Assembly: GCA_026984795.1 (NCBI GenBank)
Contig: JALSRK010000051.1
Location: 1-64,000 of the forward strand
Source: Solibacteraceae bacterium
GTDB taxonomy: Bacteria > Acidobacteriota > Terriglobia > Bryobacterales > Bryobacteraceae
Length of the DNA: 64,000 bases
Direction: 5' to 3'
The notes under the pieces are model-generated. The model was not told where the DNA came from, made no database searches, and saw only the letters and a list, made by a program, of their open reading frames with translations. Of this stretch, positions 40,706 to 48,890 are shown piece after piece. Made by a program: the position numbers and the translations under genes. How positions within the stretch are numbered: position 1 is the stretch's first letter; every line of letters starts with the position of its first letter.

Positions 40706-41242
40706 TTACATCACGCGGGGCGGTATGCGGCAGAACCAGGTGGTGTAGCGGCCGGGGCCGTCCTGGCGGCAGTAGACGGCGACGCCGCTGTTGGTCATCA
40801 GCTCGATGAGGGGCTCGGGACGGAAGGAACTGGTGAGCTGGATGAGCTCGCCTTCTTCGAGCGTAGCCAGGTACTGGCGGATCGGGCCGGCGGGGTGCTG
40901 GCCGGTTTCGAGCATCTTGTCGGCGTCGAGCGAATAGCGCACGCGGGAGGGATCCAGCCAGGGCGGGGCGGAGGAATCCGCGGGGCCGGATGTTTCCGCA
41001 GCCTCTATTGGACCTGCCGGCTGGCCGGTGGCCTCGCGCACCTTGAGGACCAGATCCCGAACGCTGACGCCGCCGATGCGGGCGGCCTGCTCCAGGGTGG
41101 CGACCTTGGCGACGGTCCGCCGGAGGACCGGATTCTTCAGTTTTCGAAACGCCGGCACCCACTCGGCCAGCGTGTCGTCGAGGCCGGGGAAGGCATCCAG
41201 TAATTCGCCGACCTTGGTTTGCGGGGTAATGACGATGCTCAT
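40706..41242 (-). CDS. DUF1858-DUF2249 protein of the nitrate cluster
   Basis: 178 aa. Residues 1-70 form DUF1858 (ITPQTKVGELLDAFPGLDDTL, then TLEQAARIGGVSVRDLV), a small domain often found with hybrid-cluster or NO-related proteins. Residues about 100-175 form DUF2249 (SLDADKMLETGQHPAGPIRQ, then FRPEPLIELM, ending TTWFCRIP), a SirA-like fold frequent beside denitrification genes. The product is cytoplasmic. Its start overlaps the DUF438 gene stop by 4 nt, so both are made together. Likely role: response to NO or repair of iron centres during nitrate respiration (inference). Confidence 0.85.
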   Translation of the reverse strand: MSIVITPQTKVGELLDAFPGLDDTLAEWVPAFRKLKNPVLRRTVAKVATLEQAARIGGVSVRDLVLKVREATGQPAGPIEAAETSGPADSSAPPWLDPSRVRYSLDADKMLETGQHPAGPIRQYLATLEEGELIQLTSSFRPEPLIELMTNSGVAVYCRQDGPGRYTTWFCRIPPRVM

Positions 41243-42498
41243 TGGATCTCTCCTTGCGCCTGCGGCTGCTCGTCGTATTGAAGCAAGCGGCGTTCGCCTT
41301 CGAGTTTCCGGATGCGGGTGACGTCCTGGGTGACCTCGAGCGTGCCCATGTACTCGCCCTTTTCGTCGCGCACGGCGAAGTAGCGGATATGGACGAAGCG
41401 GCCGCGGAAGTCGATCCAGAACTCGGCGACGCTCTGGCGGCCGGCGCGGAAGTCGTCGAGGATCTGATCGACGATGGAGACGCTGCGGGGCGGGTGGCAG
41501 TGCTGGACTTTGCGCCCGATGATGGCCTTGCTGCGGGGGAAGATGCGGTCAGGGCCTTCCGAGAAAAAGGCGACGCGGTCCTCGGCGTCCACGAAGGTCA
41601 AATCCACCGGCAGGGTCGAGAAGATGTGGATGAGCTGTTTCAGGCTCAGGGTGCCGGTGGGCAGCCGGATCGCCTCGGAGGTGGGGATCTTCAGCGCCTC
41701 GGGGATGATGGCCTCGGGCGGCTGGTAGCCCTCGCGGGGCTCCACCAGGCACCAGCCGTAGCGCGGCGAGGAGGCCCAGATCTCGGCCCACTCGTCGTCG
41801 GTGAAGGTATCCAGGCACATGGGCAGGAGGATGTTCTCCTCCTTGTAGATCATCTCCTCGACGGCCTGGAGGGCGGCTTCGGCGACGGTCTCGGCGACGA
41901 TCTTCCACTCGGCGGCGGTGGCGCCCTGCTGGGAGAGGGCCTCGCCGAGGGTCTCGAGCAGGTCGCGCACCTCGTCGTCCTTGCCCCACATGACCTTGGA
42001 GGGGCCGGTGATGCCGTGGCGCTCCAGGCAAGGGAACAAGGTGTGCTCCTTGCGCTGGTAGTGCTTTTCGATGTCCATCAGGTCGTTGTAAGCCTGGCGC
42101 CACTCGAGCAGCAGCGGGCCGGGGTCGGCGTCGTCGCGCAGCTTCTTGATCTTCGCCATCGCCTCGCGCATCCGGAGGATGACGCCCTGCAGCGCCTCGT
42201 TCTCGCGGCGGAAGGTATCGACCGGATGGCCCGGGGGGACGGTCTTCGGGGGAGGCTGGACGAGGACTTCCCGGGTGACCTGGGAGTGCAGGTCGCACAT
42301 GGACTGGATCTCTTCGGCGGGCATGCCTTCGGCCATGAGCTCCTGCTCCATGGCGACGATTTCGGAATAGTCCGTCTGCCGGACGAGCTCTTTGAGGCGG
42401 TCCTTGACGGTTTCCGGCGGCTCGCCGGCGTGCAGTTTCTTGATGATGTCTTTCAAGGTGCGGACCCGGTGGGCCCGGTTGTCGATGAGTTCGCTCAT
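41239..42498 (-). CDS. DUF438 - hemerythrin-like - PAS protein
   Basis: 419 aa. DUF438 at about 10-80 (IIKKLHAGEPPETVKDRLKE), a hemerythrin-like four-helix domain at about 92-235 with His/Glu ligands (HPVDTFRREN, DIEKHYQRKEHTLFPCLERH, MIYKEENILLP), and a C-terminal PAS domain at about 300-405 (PVDLTFVDAEDRVAFFSEG, then QHCHPPRS). The combination is typical of cytoplasmic sensors or iron-cluster repair proteins linked to O2/NO. AGGGAG precedes the ATG. A TGACCAAAGTCA palindrome lies 76 bp upstream, separating it from napB as its own transcription unit. Confidence 0.9.
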   Translation of the reverse strand: MSELIDNRAHRVRTLKDIIKKLHAGEPPETVKDRLKELVRQTDYSEIVAMEQELMAEGMPAEEIQSMCDLHSQVTREVLVQPPPKTVPPGHPVDTFRRENEALQGVILRMREAMAKIKKLRDDADPGPLLLEWRQAYNDLMDIEKHYQRKEHTLFPCLERHGITGPSKVMWGKDDEVRDLLETLGEALSQQGATAAEWKIVAETVAEAALQAVEEMIYKEENILLPMCLDTFTDDEWAEIWASSPRYGWCLVEPREGYQPPEAIIPEALKIPTSEAIRLPTGTLSLKQLIHIFSTLPVDLTFVDAEDRVAFFSEGPDRIFPRSKAIIGRKVQHCHPPRSVSIVDQILDDFRAGRQSVAEFWIDFRGRFVHIRYFAVRDEKGEYMGTLEVTQDVTRIRKLEGERRLLQYDEQPQAQGEIQ

Positions 42499-42653: not shown

Positions 42654-43199
42654 TCAATCCAGGGCGGCGGGCGTACGCTGCATGGCGGCGTGGCACTGGC
42701 GGCACTCGGGCCGGTAGCCGTGGGCGGCGCGCAAGGCGGCGGGGGCCTGGGCGCCGATGTGGCAGAGGGCGCAGTTCTCGCGGTTCTGGATGTGATGCGG
42801 GATGAGGGGCGGCGAGATCGGCGTCTGCCGGAGACCCCGGGCCGGCCACCAGAGCGGGGTGACCTCGTTCTCGACGAACACCTCGGTGGTCTTGCGCTCG
42901 ACGTGGCACTGGCGGCAGTCGCCCCAGGCCGGGTGCGTCCGCGGCGGGGCGATGCGGTCGGGGTTGTCGAGAGCGCCGGGCTCGTGGCAGTTGGCGCAGT
43001 TCTCGCGGCCGAGGGATTCGACGCCGTGGGGGATCACCGGGGGCGCCCCGTCGTAGAGGCGGAGCGCCCGGCGGGCGGCGAGCAGCTCGGCGCGGCTGGG
43101 TTCGGTTTCCGTTGCCTGCTGCTGATCCTGGGCCGGGGCCGAGCAGCCGGCGAGGAGGCCGGCGAGCAGAGCGGCGAAGATGGCGATGGCGCGGGACAT
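42654..43199 (-). CDS. napB: Four-heme NapB-like lipoprotein cytochrome c
   Basis: 181 aa from ATG 43199, which overlaps the napA stop. Lipobox LLAGC (Cys19) predicts a lipid anchor. Residues 53-115 match NapB: PPVIPHGVESLGRENCANCH, then CRQCHVERKTTEVFVENEV. A second, related module follows at 130-170 (PPLIPHHIQNRENCALCH, then CRQCH), so the protein has four CxxCH sites (Cys68, 95, 143, 166) instead of the usual two. It should deliver electrons to NapA in the periplasm. The duplication and the lipid anchor are both unusual for NapB. Confidence 0.85.
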   Translation of the reverse strand: MSRAIAIFAALLAGLLAGCSAPAQDQQQATETEPSRAELLAARRALRLYDGAPPVIPHGVESLGRENCANCHEPGALDNPDRIAPPRTHPAWGDCRQCHVERKTTEVFVENEVTPLWWPARGLRQTPISPPLIPHHIQNRENCALCHIGAQAPAALRAAHGYRPECRQCHAAMQRTPAALD

Positions 43200-45532
43200 C
43201 AGACTTTCTCCAGGCGCACGGCGCATTTCTTGTAGTCGGGCTGCTTCGAGATGGGGCAGTGGGCGTCGAGGGTCAGCAGATTGGGCAGTTTGGACTCGTC
43301 GAAGAAGGGGATGAAGACCAGGCCCCGCTGCGGGACGCCGCGGCCCCGGACGGAGGCCTTCAAGGTGAGCTCGCCGCGGCGGCTGACGACCTTCACCAGG
43401 GCGCCGTCGCTGACGCCGAGCTCGCGGGCGTCCTCGGGGTGGATCTCGACGAAGGGTTCCGGCATGGCCTGGTAGAGCTGCTTGACGCGGCGGGTCATGG
43501 TGCCGGTGTGCCAGTGCTCGAGGACGCGCCCGGTGGTGAGCCAAAATGGGTACTCGTCGTCGGGCGATTCCGGCGGCGGCTGGTAGGGCCGCTGCCAGAT
43601 GACGGCGCGGTTGCCGAGCTTCTTGTTGCCGTAGAAGGAAATGCCCTCGCCGGGCTTGACGTAGGGGTCGTAGCCTTCGCGGTAGCGCCAGCGCGTCTCG
43701 CGGCCGTTCACCACGGGCCACCGGAGGCCGCGGTTGCGCCGGAGGTCGTCGTAGGAGGCGACGTCCTTGCCGGCGCCTAGGGTCCACTGGCGGTACTCCT
43801 CGTAGAGGCCGCGGGCTTGTTCCTCTTCGGTCTTCCAGGGGAAGAGCTTGCCGTAGCCCATGCGGCGGGCGATCTCGATGGTGATCCAGGAATCGGGCCT
43901 GGCTTCGCCGGGCGGATCGACGAGCTTGTCCCACTGCTGGGTGCGGCGCTCGGAGTTGCCGAAGCAGGCCTCGCGCTCCACCCACATGGCGGCAGGCAGG
44001 ATGACGTCGGCGATCTCGGTAGTGGCGGTGGGGTAGACGTCGCAGACGACGATGAACGGCTTGTGCTCGGCGATGCCCTTCTTGAACCAGTTGAGGTCCG
44101 GCAGGGTGACCATCGGGTTGGTCACCTGGATGATGATGCCCTTGAGCTTGCCGGTGGCCAGGTTCCGGAACATGGCGATGGTGTGCATCGAAGGCTTGGC
44201 CGGAAGCGACTCGACGGGGACGTCCCACATCTTGGCGGCGAAGGCGCGGTGCTCGGGGTTGTCCACGCGGCGGCCGCCGGGCAGGGCGTGGGTGAGGGTG
44301 CCGACCTCGCGGACGGTGCCGCAGGCCGAGGGCTGGCCGGTGAGCGAGAACGGGCCGTTGCCCGGCTCGGAGATCTTGCCGGTAAGCAGGTGGATGTTGT
44401 AGACGAGGTTGTTGATCCAGGTGCCGCGGGTGTGCTGGTTCATGCCCATGCACCAGAGCGAGACGACCTTCTTGTTGGGGTCGCCGTAGAGAGCGGCCAC
44501 CTGTCGGATCTTGGCGGCGGGCACGCCGGAAACGTTTTCGGCGTATTCGGGGGTGTATTTCTCGAGGAAACGGCGGTAGGCGGCGAAGCTGGTGATCTCG
44601 TTGCGCATCGGGTTGGGGGCCGAGGTGCCGCGGAGGCCGTAGCCGATGTTCTCCTCGCCGCGCTTGAAGACGCAGTGGCGGCGGACGAACTCCTCGTCCA
44701 CCCAGCCGTTGTTGACGATCTCGTGGGCGATGGCGTTGGCGATGGCCAGGTCGGTGTGGGGCTTGAATTCGAGGAAGAGGTCGGAGCCCTCGGTGGTGCG
44801 GGTCCGGCGGGTGGCGATGTCGACGAGGACGACCTGGGGGACCTTCTGTTTGCGGGCGCGGATGCGGCTGAAGAGCACCGGGTGCATCTCGGCCATGTTG
44901 TTGCCCCAGAAGACGAAGACGTCGGCCAGGTCGAAGTCGTCGTAGCAGCCCATCGGCTCGTCCTTGCCGAAGGTGGTGAGGAAGCCGGTGACGGCGCTGG
45001 CCATGCAGAGGCGGGCGTTGGCCTCGATGTTGTTGTTGCCGACGCCGGCGCGGATCCACTTGGAAGCGGCGTAGCCGTCCTGGATGGTCCACTGGCCGGA
45101 GCCGTAGACGGCGATGGCGCCCTTGCCGTGCTCGTCGATGAGCTGTTTGAACTTCGAGGCGACCAGATCGAGGGCCTCGTCCATGGAGACCTCTTCGAGC
45201 TTGCCGTTGCGGCGCACGAGGGGCCTGGTGAGGCGGTCCTTGGCGTACAAGATCCCCGGCAGATGGTAACCCTTGACGCACAGCAGGCCAAGGTTGACCG
45301 GGTTCTGGCGGTCGCCGGCCACGGCGACGACCTTGCCGTCGCGGACGCCGACCATGACGCCGCAGCCCGTGCCGCAGAAGCGGCAGGGAGCCTTGCTCCA
45401 GGCGACGCCGTCGTCGTCGAGGATCGCCCCGGCCTCCGTGCTGCAAGAGGAGGCGAGGCCGCCCAGGACGGCGGCGCTCCAGGCGGCGGCCGTCCGTTTC
45501 AGGAATTCGCGGCGGGATTCGGTGCTTGCCAT
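43199..45532 (-). CDS. napA: Periplasmic nitrate reductase catalytic subunit NapA
   Basis: 777 aa from ATG 45532 (AGGGAG upstream). Tat signal [15 protein letters not shown]. The [4Fe-4S] ligands are Cys50, Cys53, Cys57 and Cys85 (CRFCGTGCG and LLCVKG). The Mo-bis-MGD ligand is Cys176 in [10 protein letters not shown]. Further NapA hallmarks are [24 protein letters not shown] and [18 protein letters not shown]. It reduces nitrate to nitrite in the periplasm. Directly downstream of napD and overlapping napB. No napF, napG, napH or napC is nearby. Length is normal (E. coli NapA is about 830 aa). Confidence 0.95.
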
Positions 45533-45563
45533 GATGACTCTGCTCCCTTGCCTTCGCTCCATG

Positions 45564-45824
45564 TCACGTTCGCGCGGCCGCTCCAGGCGCGGTGGCCACG
45601 TCTTCGATGTTGGTGAACGTCACCCAGGCCGACAGCACGCCGGGCAGGGCGGCGAGCCAGTCGACGCAGGCGCGGTCCTCTTCGAGGGTCGCCGTATCGG
45701 TGACGACGATCAGGTGGTTTCCTTGACGGCCGCGCACCTCGGCTTCCGGGCGCCCGGCCACGCGGCGGCGGACGGCGTCCACCGCCGCTTCTTGACACAT
45801 CAGGACGAGTCCGGATACCGGCAT
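45564..45824 (-). CDS. napD: NapD-like chaperone for NapA maturation
   Basis: 86 aa from ATG 45824, whose A is shared with the TAA stop of the octaheme gene. Ferredoxin-like NapD fold: [20 protein letters not shown], then [13 protein letters not shown] and [16 protein letters not shown]. NapD binds the Tat signal of NapA and delays export until the cofactor is inserted. It sits 31 bp before napA, where it is needed. Confidence 0.88.
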
Positions 45825-47299
45825 TACTGTGCGTACCTCTTCTTGAACTCTTCGGCCGCCTTCTTGCGGGCCGCACGTTCGGCGGGGCTCATGCGGCCGA
45901 GGAACCACTTGTGCATGTCCGAGTCGAGGATCTGGTTGAGGCGCGCCTCGATGCGGGCGGCGGCGGCCGCCTTGCCGTGGCGCCGGCCCTCGGCGAGCAC
46001 CTCGCGAAGCTGCGGGACGAACTCCATGTAGAAGCGCTCGGCAACCTCGTAGAAGCCGTGCCACTGGGTGTAGTCGGGCCCCATCATGGCGGCGCCGTGG
46101 CGGGCGCGCCGGCCCTCGTGGTGCCAGAGGTAGAAGTAGGTGAACTCGAGCTCCTCGTCGAACTGGATTTCGGTGAGCAGCCCCTCCTTGCGGGCCATCT
46201 GGAACAGCTCGGTGGCCGGCTTGCCGAACTTCTCGTTGTAGAGGTTCACGGCGTTGTCGAACTGCACGTACCAGTTCTTCACCCACTCGGTGGCGTGGCA
46301 GGAAGAGCAGACCTCCTGCATGTCCTTGCGGCGCTGCTGCCAGCTCTTGACGCGCTTGCCGGCCTTGATGGCGGCGGCGTCGATCTTCTCGGAGACCGGC
46401 GGCCGGAGGGTCCAGGAGATGCGCTCGCCGACGTCGTGGGTGACGGGCAGGTTCTTGGTGGCGCCCATGTGGCAGACGCTGCAGGTGGGGCCCTGCTCGA
46501 AGTCCTTGCCTGGGATCCACTCCTTGGCTTCCATCAACGGTTCGAAACGGGCCCGGTTGGCCTCGAACGCGATGCCGTGTTTGGACTCTTGGTAGATCTC
46601 CTTCTGGGGGTGGTCCGGCCCGAGGTGGCACCGTCCGCAGTTCTCCGGCGCCCGGGCCTGGGCCCGTGAGAAGTTGTGCCGGAGGTGGCAGGCCGAACAG
46701 GAGCCGCGGGAACCGTCAGGGTTGAGGCGGCCGATGCCGGTGTTCGGCCAGGTGGCCGGATCGAGCTTGCCGTTGTCGAGCACTTTGATCTCGGCGCCAT
46801 GGCACTGCAGGCAGCCGCTGACGGCGGCCGGCGACGGCTTTACCTTGTTGCCCTGGGCATCGAACTCGACGAAGCCCTCGACTACCTCGGCCAGCACGTT
46901 ATCGAGCGAGCCAAGGATCTGGCCGGCTGAGGCGTGGTGGGAAGCCTGGAACTCGGCGGCCTCGCGCTCGTGGCACTGGGCGCAGTCCTTGGGGCTGACC
47001 ACGGTGGCGATCAGACGACCCTCATGCTGGTAGGCGTCGACGTCGCCTTTCTCCGCCTGGTGGCATTGCAGGCAGCCGATGCCCGACTTGGCGTGGGTGG
47101 AGATCTCCCACTGGCCGACGATGCCGGGGCTCTTGACGCGGTGGCAATCGACGCAGTCCTTGTTTTCACTGGTGACCACGGCGTCGGGCGCTTTCACCAC
47201 GCGCCGGCGGCCTCCTTCGACCCAGGCCACGATGGTCAGGGCGGCGAGGAAGAAGAATGCAAGTGCAATGATGATTTTTTGCTTCTGATCGAGAGACAT
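45824..47299 (-). CDS. Octaheme cytochrome c, hydroxylamine-oxidoreductase (HAO) family
   Basis: 491 aa. An uncleaved N-terminal anchor (about 8-27), then eight CxxCH motifs in order: CVDCH, CLQCH, CAQCH, CLQCH, CSACH, CGRCH, CSVCH and CSSCH. The region MMGPDYTQWHGFYEVAERFY near residue 410 is characteristic of the HAO family. There is no CxxCK, so it is not NrfA. In campylobacterota lacking NrfA, HAO-type proteins beside nap genes reduce nitrite, whereas true HAO oxidises hydroxylamine using a Tyr cross-linked to the active heme; which case holds needs alignment. Encoded between cytochrome b and napD. Confidence 0.85.
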   Translation of the reverse strand: MSLDQKQKIIIALAFFFLAALTIVAWVEGGRRRVVKAPDAVVTSENKDCVDCHRVKSPGIVGQWEISTHAKSGIGCLQCHQAEKGDVDAYQHEGRLIATVVSPKDCAQCHEREAAEFQASHHASAGQILGSLDNVLAEVVEGFVEFDAQGNKVKPSPAAVSGCLQCHGAEIKVLDNGKLDPATWPNTGIGRLNPDGSRGSCSACHLRHNFSRAQARAPENCGRCHLGPDHPQKEIYQESKHGIAFEANRARFEPLMEAKEWIPGKDFEQGPTCSVCHMGATKNLPVTHDVGERISWTLRPPVSEKIDAAAIKAGKRVKSWQQRRKDMQEVCSSCHATEWVKNWYVQFDNAVNLYNEKFGKPATELFQMARKEGLLTEIQFDEELEFTYFYLWHHEGRRARHGAAMMGPDYTQWHGFYEVAERFYMEFVPQLREVLAEGRRHGKAAAAARIEARLNQILDSDMHKWFLGRMSPAERAARKKAAEEFKKRYAQ

Positions 47300-47307
47300 G
47301 GTTTTTC

Positions 47308-48375
47308 TCAGTGCAGCAGGTGCAGGGACTCCCAGACGGTCAGCGTCAGGAGAGAGATTACGGCGCCGGCGCCGATCCAGATCGAGAGTTCACTGTCGGG
47401 CCGGCGTTTGCGGATGCGGGCGTCGATGAGCGGCCAGAAGAAGATCAGGGCGATGAAGAGGCCTTGGGTGGCGACGGCCGCCTGTTCCGGCATCAGCTTG
47501 AGCCAGCGGAAGGCCCAGAAGAAGTACCATTCCGGCTTGATATGCTCCGGCGTGACCAGCGGGTTGGCCTTGGGCCCGAGGCCGGCCGGGAAGACGATGG
47601 CCAGGAAGGTGAGGATGAACATCAGGAACAAGGCCACCGCGATCTCGGTGAACAGATGGTCGGGAATGAACGGGAACCGCTTGGCATCCGGGCCGGCCGG
47701 GGATCCTAGAGGGGAGACGCCGTGGGTGCGCATCAGCAGCAAGTGGCCGAGAAGAACCACCACCATCAGGGTCGGTAAGGCGCCGATGTGGAAAACGAAC
47801 AAGCGCGTGAGCATATTGGACCCGACGTGGGATCCGCCGCGGAGGAACCCGGCCAGATCAGGGCCAATCAGGGGAATCGACTGGAGGATGTTGGCGGCCA
47901 CGGTGGCGCCCCAGAAAGAGAGCTGCTCGTAGACGAGCGAGTAGCCGGTGAAGCCGAAGCCGAGCGTCAACAGCAGCAGCAGGACGCCCAGCATCCAGTT
48001 GCCTTCCCGCGGGCGGCGGTAAGCGCCGGTGAAGAAGACGCGCATCATGTGCAGCAAGACGGCCACGATCATGAGGTTCGCCGACCACTTGTGCAGGCTG
48101 CGGATGTACCAGCCGAAGCGGACTTGGTTGGTAATAGCGGCGACGCTCTCATAGGCCTGGTCCGGCGTGGGCACGTAATAGAACGTGAGCAGCACGCCGG
48201 TGACGGCCTGAATGATGAACAGGTAGGCGGGAGTGCCGCCGAGGCACCACCACCAGCGCTTGAGGTGTCCGGGGACGGGCTCGGAGCCCATCGAGATCAA
48301 GACCTGCTGGTCGACCGGGAAGCGCTCGCGGAGCCAGTCGTTGGCCCGCACCAGCGCGGAAGCAACGCGGCTCAT
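47308..48375 (-). CDS. Cytochrome b (fused b6/subunit IV type) of a quinol-oxidising complex
   Basis: 355 aa from ATG 48375. About eight membrane helices. The two heme-b His pairs are visible in SLHKWSANLMIVAVLLHMMRVF and FHIGALPTLMVVVLLGHLLLM. The quinol-site PEWY motif is EHIKPEWYFFWAFRWLK. N- and C-terminal parts are in one chain, as in bc1 cytochrome b. No cytochrome c1 or f follows; the next gene is the octaheme cytochrome. Overlaps the Rieske gene by 4 nt. Confidence 0.93.
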   Translation of the reverse strand: MSRVASALVRANDWLRERFPVDQQVLISMGSEPVPGHLKRWWWCLGGTPAYLFIIQAVTGVLLTFYYVPTPDQAYESVAAITNQVRFGWYIRSLHKWSANLMIVAVLLHMMRVFFTGAYRRPREGNWMLGVLLLLLTLGFGFTGYSLVYEQLSFWGATVAANILQSIPLIGPDLAGFLRGGSHVGSNMLTRLFVFHIGALPTLMVVVLLGHLLLMRTHGVSPLGSPAGPDAKRFPFIPDHLFTEIAVALFLMFILTFLAIVFPAGLGPKANPLVTPEHIKPEWYFFWAFRWLKLMPEQAAVATQGLFIALIFFWPLIDARIRKRRPDSELSIWIGAGAVISLLTLTVWESLHLLH

Positions 48376-48890
48376 ACCTCCTCCACGACGGCATAGATCG
48401 AGTTGCCCTCGACGAGGATTTCGTAAGGCTTCAGGTTGCTGCCCGACTGAGCCGGCGGGCCGGCGACGGCGACGCCGCCGGCGGTGAAGACTCCGCCGTG
48501 GCACGGGCAGACGAACTCTTCCCGGCGCGCCTCCCAATGGACCTTGCAGCCCAGGTGCGGGCAGCTATTGGAGAAGGCGATGAAAGTATTGCCGGTGACC
48601 GGGTTGATCTTGCCGGTGTTCGAGATCAGCAACTGATCGCCGGTGGGCAGGTTCACGGCCTTGCTGGCGCCGGGACGGATCTGGTCAGAGAAGCCAAGGA
48701 AAACGCGGATGCGACGCGGCGGCTTCGGGGCGGGAAAGACGAACTTCAGTGCATAAGATGCGAATACCCCGTATGCGGCCCCAACAGTAGCGAGGAAACC
48801 GCCGAAGAGGAACTTACGCCGCGCCACCCAGCCGACGATGTCGTTTGCATTGAATGACTTCTGGTTCAACACGCCCCCTTGTGCCGGCAC
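48372..48890 (-). CDS. Rieske [2Fe-2S] protein
   Basis: 172 aa (GTG 48890; GTG 48872 with GGGGG upstream is also plausible). One N-terminal membrane anchor (FLFGGFLATVGAAYGVFAS), then the Rieske fold with both cluster-binding boxes: CPHLGCKVHW and CPCHGGVF. It would take one electron from quinol bound at cytochrome b and pass it to a periplasmic cytochrome. First gene of the minus-strand nitrate unit. The shared TGACTAAAGTCA site is 73 bp upstream. Confidence 0.93.
   Translation of the reverse strand: MPAQGGVLNQKSFNANDIVGWVARRKFLFGGFLATVGAAYGVFASYALKFVFPAPKPPRRIRVFLGFSDQIRPGASKAVNLPTGDQLLISNTGKINPVTGNTFIAFSNSCPHLGCKVHWEARREEFVCPCHGGVFTAGGVAVAGPPAQSGSNLKPYEILVEGNSIYAVVEEV

Follow-up and report, generated by a model that had tools for sequence, protein, structure and literature searches.

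A widespread four-heme form of NapB, with two predicted NapB modules, encoded beside a short-form NapA in a Solibacteraceae bacterium

The window, meaning the whole stretch of DNA analyzed here, comprises 64,000 nucleotides (positions 1 to 64,000 of contig JALSRK010000051.1, assembly GCA_026984795.1) from a Solibacteraceae bacterium of the phylum Acidobacteriota. Its minus strand carries, in order, genes for a Rieske protein, a cytochrome b, an octaheme cytochrome, NapD, NapA, and a four-heme NapB-like subunit that we call NapB4 (Table 1). The joints between NapA stop and NapB4 ATG (TGATG), Rieske and cytochrome b (ATGA), and octaheme cytochrome and NapD (TAATG) overlap, which suggests that all six genes are transcribed together. 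Between 36 and 52 kb the window showed neither NapG nor NapH. Downstream on the same strand (41239-42498) lies a gene for a DUF438-hemerythrin-PAS protein, a possible oxygen or NO sensor.

Table 1. Coordinates of the operon genes and of the features of NapB4 in the window
Feature	Position	Strand	Basis
napB4, four-heme NapB-like subunit (NapB4), 181 aa	42654..43199 (including stop)	minus	ORF, Pfam, alignment of halves, profile comparison
Lipoprotein signal, residues 1-19, lipobox LLAGC, predicted lipidated Cys19	43143..43199	minus	sequence; Cys19 after hydrophobic stretch
N-module, residues 45-116: PPVIPH, two CxxCH, FVEN tail	42852..43067	minus	Pfam NapB 25-112; hhalign vs canonical NapB 107.7
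C-module, residues 127-178: PPLIPH, two CxxCH	42666..42821	minus	hhalign vs N-module 112, vs canonical NapB 77 to 82
Heme site 1, CANCH, residues 68-72	42984..42998	minus	CxxCH
Heme site 2, CRQCH, residues 95-99	42903..42917	minus	CxxCH
Heme site 3, CALCH, residues 143-147	42759..42773	minus	CxxCH
Heme site 4, CRQCH, residues 166-170	42690..42704	minus	CxxCH
His58, candidate distal heme ligand	43026..43028	minus	H in 62/62 members; putative role
His89, candidate distal heme ligand	42933..42935	minus	H in 62/62 members; putative role
His135, candidate distal heme ligand	42795..42797	minus	H in 62/62 members; putative role
His160, candidate distal heme ligand	42720..42722	minus	H in 62/62 members; putative role
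NapA, short form, periplasmic nitrate reductase catalytic subunit	43199..45562	minus	NCBIfam NapA 1008.8 bits vs cut-off 904; Tyr58 equivalent kept
NapD, NapA signal-peptide chaperone	45564..45824	minus	Pfam NapD 49.1 bits
Octaheme cytochrome, HAO family, hydrophobic N-terminus	45824..47299	minus	eight CxxCH; best PDB match 4qo5, E 2e-45
Cytochrome b, 355 aa	47308..48375	minus	Pfam Cytochrome_B and Cytochrom_B_C; start set by ATGA overlap
Rieske [2Fe-2S] protein	48372..48890	minus	Pfam Rieske; CPHLG and CPCHG motifs

NapB is known from textbooks as a two-heme subunit of nitrate respiration. With its four CxxCH sites NapB4 falls outside the diheme definition of NapB, and it was filed as a four-heme variant rather than as a classical NapB. 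A sequence-only reading of this DNA had described four CxxCH sites, paired PP-x-I-P-H motifs (PPVIPH at residues 53-58 and PPLIPH at residues 130-135), RENCA.CH and CRQCH pairs, and an LLAGC lipobox, all of which are present as it described them. Eight His residues (four proximal, four candidate distal) are invariant in all 62 NapB4 members compared. Diheme NapB (E. coli, Cereibacter, Cupriavidus; PF03892) shares with NapB4 the PPxIPH motif, the CxxCH pair, the inter-heme His, a nearby napA and NapA Tyr58, but NapB4 has four hemes by duplication and, in most members, a predicted tether; heme sites 1 and 2 are spaced 22-34 apart in the 62 NapB4 members (one has 48) versus 35-48 in 21 canonical proteins.

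The closest solved chain to NapB4 is the diheme NapB 1jni (E 0.0023). Pfam NapB matches NapB4 at 29.8 bits (cut-off 25.1), covering residues 25-112 only, and the first half alone at 34.1, while the second half alone has no Pfam NapB match at E <=1; its kinship to NapB is visible only by profile comparison. All 43 NapB4 members scanned match Pfam NapB at E <=0.01. The NCBIfam NapB equivalog NF008609 gives NapB4 10.7 bits, below its cut-off of 230, and matches five of the 43 members at E <=0.001 (best 1e-4). NapC/NirT (PF03264) is absent from the 14 Pfam families that match NapB4 at E <=10, and 14 of the 43 members match it weakly.

Aligned with each other, the two halves of the window protein score 96, a value reached by none of 1000 full shuffles of the second half (maximum 54) and by one of 1000 shuffles in which its heme-binding C, C and H were fixed (maximum 99). 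Family profiles of the N-module and C-module, built from 99 loci with the window included and the divergent locus L145 left out, match with an hhalign score of 112 (E 1e-23), and a profile of the 21 canonical diheme NapBs scores 107.7 against the N-module and 77.3 against the C-module. Ten null profiles of unrelated diheme segments, seven from the octaheme family (14 sequences) and three from a small four-heme cytochrome (75 sequences), reach at most 38.6 against the N-module, C-module or canonical NapB profile. A profile spanning hemes 2 and 3, which overlaps both modules and is thus no null, scores 62.9 against canonical NapB, above all ten nulls and below both modules. Because the profile scores exceed the ten nulls, both halves are predicted to be NapB modules and the subunit to have arisen by internal duplication. 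This is the kinship and origin that the sequence-only reading had proposed; the comparison of the halves that it had suggested as a check bears it out, both by hhalign and by the pair alignment set against shuffles, and the profile comparison led us to reject an unrelated tetraheme cytochrome.

A quick module tree separates the C-modules from the N-modules plus canonical NapB (support 98); it is an unrooted tree of short sequences (73 columns, 29 of 60 inner branches open) from which the order of the four- and two-heme forms is not readable. Exceptions on the C side are the long-branched L144 N-module and both L145 modules. Locus L145 (6779-9719, genome G378) encodes a tetraheme protein with two closely similar diheme repeats, beside divergent NapA, NapG and NapH; its modules group together (100), and it looks like a separate duplication.

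The four-heme NapB form is real and widespread. A species-level scan (one genome per species) found 108 relatives, which ruled out a rare or unique protein; the best 80 of the 108 were kept and are mostly from Flavobacteriaceae, with others from Planctomycetota, Kiritimatiellales, Desulfobacterales, Halobacteriovorax and Acidobacteria. The named NapB4 members span Bacteroidota, Acidobacteriota, Planctomycetota, Kiritimatiellota, Bdellovibrionota and Thermodesulfobacteriota. A search of 396 genomes of the window's phylum gave 20 that match, its own genome included, one of them (G368) through a diheme NapB (L146). The gene is patchy, since two of 60 near relatives of the window genome match and only one strongly. 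The locus sample holds 100 loci with four CxxCH, namely the window and 99 others (80 plus 19); it was fetched by a four-heme query and is weighted to Flavobacteriaceae, and its counts are of loci, not of independent events. Among 38 genomes searched, a classical diheme NapB coexists with NapB4 in G414 and G392 (two copies) and is decayed in G250, where about 2.5 kb past the end of napB4 there is a NapD/NapB-like remnant that has no CxxCH (L135:12220-13044).

In 99 of the 100 loci the gene immediately upstream, in the same orientation, is napA. Three NapC queries detected no NapC-like gene on the NapB4 strand of any locus (one weak four-heme match lies on the other strand of L088); the sequence-only reading had suggested looking for the same form in other Nap clusters lacking NapC, and there it is. 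The exception to the napA link is a locus of Haloflavibacter putidus (L091:7551-8471), with a four-heme NapB, a small cytochrome, HybA and NrfD and with no NapA in 16 kb; a search of the whole genome, run with no positive control, found no NapA. Elsewhere in the window genome there is one NapC/NirT-domain match, to a 476-residue multiheme protein that is not a classical NapC. Lack of NapC is not special to four-heme clusters, because only two of 14 diheme NapB stretches of the window's phylum show NapC/NrfH-type matches.

Rieske, cytochrome b and octaheme genes accompany NapB4 in 14 of the 100 loci: the window, 11 others of its phylum (L129, L130, L132, L134-L140, L143), a Planctomycetota MAG (L025) and a further MAG (L065). 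HybA-like and NrfD genes lie downstream in 78, and eight loci, several on short contigs, have neither type. No Rieske or cytochrome b gene (>60 bits) was found on the same strand in any of the 78 HybA/NrfD stretches. The figure of 78 requires both NrfD and HybA downstream in the same orientation; counting every stretch with an NrfD anywhere gives 79 (L145 included), the number used for the N-terminus counts below. A small four-heme cytochrome adjoins NapB4 in 75 of the 78 NrfD-type clusters (e.g. L031:8458-9099) and may be the donor to NapB4 there. Zhouia genes (identified with Pfam) and an annotated Flammeovirga record serve as examples of cluster types. In a Desulfobacterales MAG (L099:5400-16400), NapA and a four-heme NapB are followed by NapF, an E. 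coli-type NapA, NapG and NapH, making two adjoining Nap systems.

Tethering to the membrane is predicted in most four-heme members and appears to be made in two ways, by a lipid or by a hydrophobic N-terminus. N-termini were classed by regular expression, hydropathy window and rule-chosen start codons, with cleaved and uncleaved signals pooled. A lipobox-like site occurs in 12 of the 14 Rieske-type loci (two are without) and in none of the 79 loci with NrfD. In every one of these 79 the N-terminus is hydrophobic (mean hydropathy of the best 13 residues at least 1.85), the stretch being placed 63-93 residues ahead of heme 1. The lipoprotein signal described earlier for NapB4 is present in the window, but the lipobox is a trait of the Rieske-type subset and not of the four-heme form. 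Clear lipobox-like ends are visible by eye in three (L209, L210, L216) of the 13 canonical NapBs from the window's phylum whose N-terminus could be read. Lipoprotein sorting in E. coli turns on an Asp after the lipidated Cys; because no Asp directly follows any of the 12 Rieske-type lipoboxes, the NapB4 lipid could, by this rule, lie in the outer membrane.

The AlphaFold2 model of window NapB4 is poor (pLDDT 67, pTM 0.39), and Foldseek gave no significant match with it (best NapB 3ml1_B, E 6.5). The model of the Zhouia relative (pLDDT 79, pTM 0.61) has a helix at residues 2-30, modeled with confidence and in keeping with an anchor that is not cleaved. With this model Foldseek gave no matches at E <=10; among its four top-ranked chains, the three with Z of at least 2 are all NapB, with weak scores (Z 2.4-3.8) over the N-module only.

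The partner NapAs form a distinct branch. In a quick tree of 50 NapAs, 28 four-heme-linked and 20 diheme-linked rows are separated by one change on a single branch (SH-aLRT 100). In this tree the window's family member G032 has named Acidobacteriota and Bryobacterales loci as close neighbors. With outgroups added (Desulfovibrio NapA, Polaribacter NapA-like reductase, E. coli FdhF) and without L142 and L145, two rows on long branches, the split is kept (99), and the test neither rejects nor establishes monophyly of the four-heme-linked NapAs (p-AU 0.66). Unlike the NapA of diheme NapB, the four-heme-linked proteins lack most of E. coli 579-625 (about 43 columns) as well as short loops at 105-110 and 312-319, and the distance from the first cluster cysteine to the end is 721-744 versus 753-882. 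Tyr58 is kept in 27 of 28 four-heme-linked and 20 of 20 diheme-linked rows, while Desulfovibrio NapA, which has no NapB, carries Ser at this position by the printed alignment. Tyr58, conserved in heterodimeric Nap, is about 7.5 A away from NapB heme II (PMC13223375, in the parts covered). Two further contact residues from the covered parts of that review, E47 and S772, are found in none and 13 of the 28 four-heme-linked rows, respectively, and in four and six of the 20 diheme-linked rows, 11 of which are gapped at S772. The residue before the presumed Mo-ligand Cys (E. coli 178) is Leu in all 28 four-heme-linked rows and in Desulfovibrio NapA, and His in all 20 diheme-linked rows.

We consider it likely that NapB4 is a tethered four-heme NapB-type relay into short-form NapA, fed by the adjoining quinol-oxidizing module. 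Its two tandem diheme NapB modules would hold four bis-His hemes, and it would be held at the membrane by its N-terminal lipid, as NrfD relatives would be by the hydrophobic N-terminus (a helix in the Zhouia model). Docked to NapA, NapB4 would pass electrons from the neighboring quinol-oxidizing module to the NapA [4Fe-4S] cluster. In the window this module would consist of the Rieske protein, cytochrome b and octaheme cytochrome, with energy presumably conserved by a Q cycle.

Within this module the prospects are even that the octaheme cytochrome is an electron bridge from the Rieske protein to NapB4, either in place of a nitrite reductase or as both. A bridge is favored by the six window operon genes, none of which is c1-like, and by the presence of Rieske and octaheme genes in all 14 cytochrome b loci (the octaheme gene of L132 is cut by the contig end). 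However, the nearest solved relative of the window protein, the archaeal 4qo5 (presumably from Ignicoccus hospitalis), is an octaheme cytochrome of the HAO family, and the octaheme protein beside the Caldithrix nap genes with Rieske and cytochrome b is proposed to be a nitrite reductase (PMC5317091, in the parts covered). As described in those parts, the Caldithrix abyssi cluster resembles the window in having Rieske, cytochrome b and octaheme (eHao) genes beside NapA and no NapC, but it has NapM and NapGH and no NapB, whereas the window has NapB4.

For the path through NapB4 itself, an orientation in which the C-module docks NapA and electrons run through hemes 1-2-3-4, away from the anchor, is a serious candidate that we place just short of an even chance. 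Comparing 14 Rieske-type with 42 NrfD-type rows, the C-module is better conserved across cluster types than the N-module (identity 0.433 versus 0.291 at non-motif positions), as would be expected if this module faces NapA, the partner common to both types, and the anchor sits at the N-terminus. Against this orientation, the N-module is nearest to canonical NapB by profile (108 versus 77), groups with it in the module tree (98), and is the part aligned to NapB chains in the Zhouia model. Electrons are presumed to enter NapB at heme I (PMC13223375, in the parts covered).

The earlier proposal that the duplication was selected to bridge the Rieske/cytochrome b complex to NapA, so that the four-heme form is what lets the two couple, is very unlikely: the four-heme subunit is clustered with Rieske, cytochrome b and octaheme genes in the window and 13 other loci, but HybA/NrfD take their place in 78 of 100, the C-module is conserved in both cluster types, and in Campylobacter jejuni the NapB that is coupled to a bc complex has only two hemes (PMC6195509, in the parts covered). 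There, by the same parts, QcrABC feeds NapAB in a route that is like the window's in its Rieske/cytochrome b donor and proposed electrogenic character, and unlike it in having a diheme NapB and in encoding the complex, whose c subunit is diheme, in an operon of its own (qcrABC). Very unlikely too is replacement of NapB by a c3/c7- or NapM-type tetraheme cytochrome with likeness by heme-motif convergence, which would accord with Pfam Cytochrome_C7 and Cytochrom_c3_2 matches in 43 and 38 of 43 members (E <=0.01), the annotation of a Flammeovirga member as 'cytochrome c3 family protein', and a C-module that alone falls below Pfam NapB, but is opposed by scores of both modules against canonical NapB two to three times those of the best unrelated diheme profile and by the PPxIPH motif, the V.N.F-like element after the N-module hemes, and NapA Tyr58, all common to NapB systems. 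NapB4 itself stays below the curated cut-offs of Cytochrome_C7 (23.3 vs 24.8), Cytochrom_c3_2 (20.6 vs 25) and TmcA (20.2 vs 114). NapM (Desulfovibrio, Caldithrix) is like NapB4 in having four hemes and in being considered the NapA donor where NapB is absent, but it is described as belonging to NapB-less systems (PMC5317091, in the parts covered).

We found no description of a four-heme NapB in the open-access PMC literature, and a 2026 review of Nap, in the parts covered, gives four operon types without a four-heme NapB, Rieske/cytochrome b or NrfD (PMC13223375). This lack of comment may be explained by the failure of the NCBI NapB model together with differing record names: in the one annotated record, from Flammeovirga, NapA is a 'molybdopterin-dependent oxidoreductase' and NapB4 bears the c3 label given above. 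It is conceivable, though we think it unlikely, that short NapA and four-heme NapB form a separate Nap class, at least as old as the textbook one, and that diheme NapB was then reduced, its C-module lost while NapA gained an insertion. That reading is compatible with the data because canonical NapB groups with N-modules, four-heme-linked NapAs are short, and their monophyly is not rejected, and because short NapA is held to be probably ancestral (PMC13223375, in the parts covered).

For the biology of nitrate reduction, the pairing of short NapA with NapB4 bears on energy conservation and on surveys. Nap driven by NapC or NapGH is thought not to conserve energy at the quinol step, and an electrogenic Nap was argued for Campylobacter from deletion of qcrABC (PMC6195509, in the parts covered). 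By analogy with that case, the pairing with Rieske and cytochrome b in the window could allow nitrate respiration to conserve energy at the quinol step. Nitrate reducers of this class, many Flavobacteriaceae among them, may be overlooked where surveys depend on NapB or NapC as markers.
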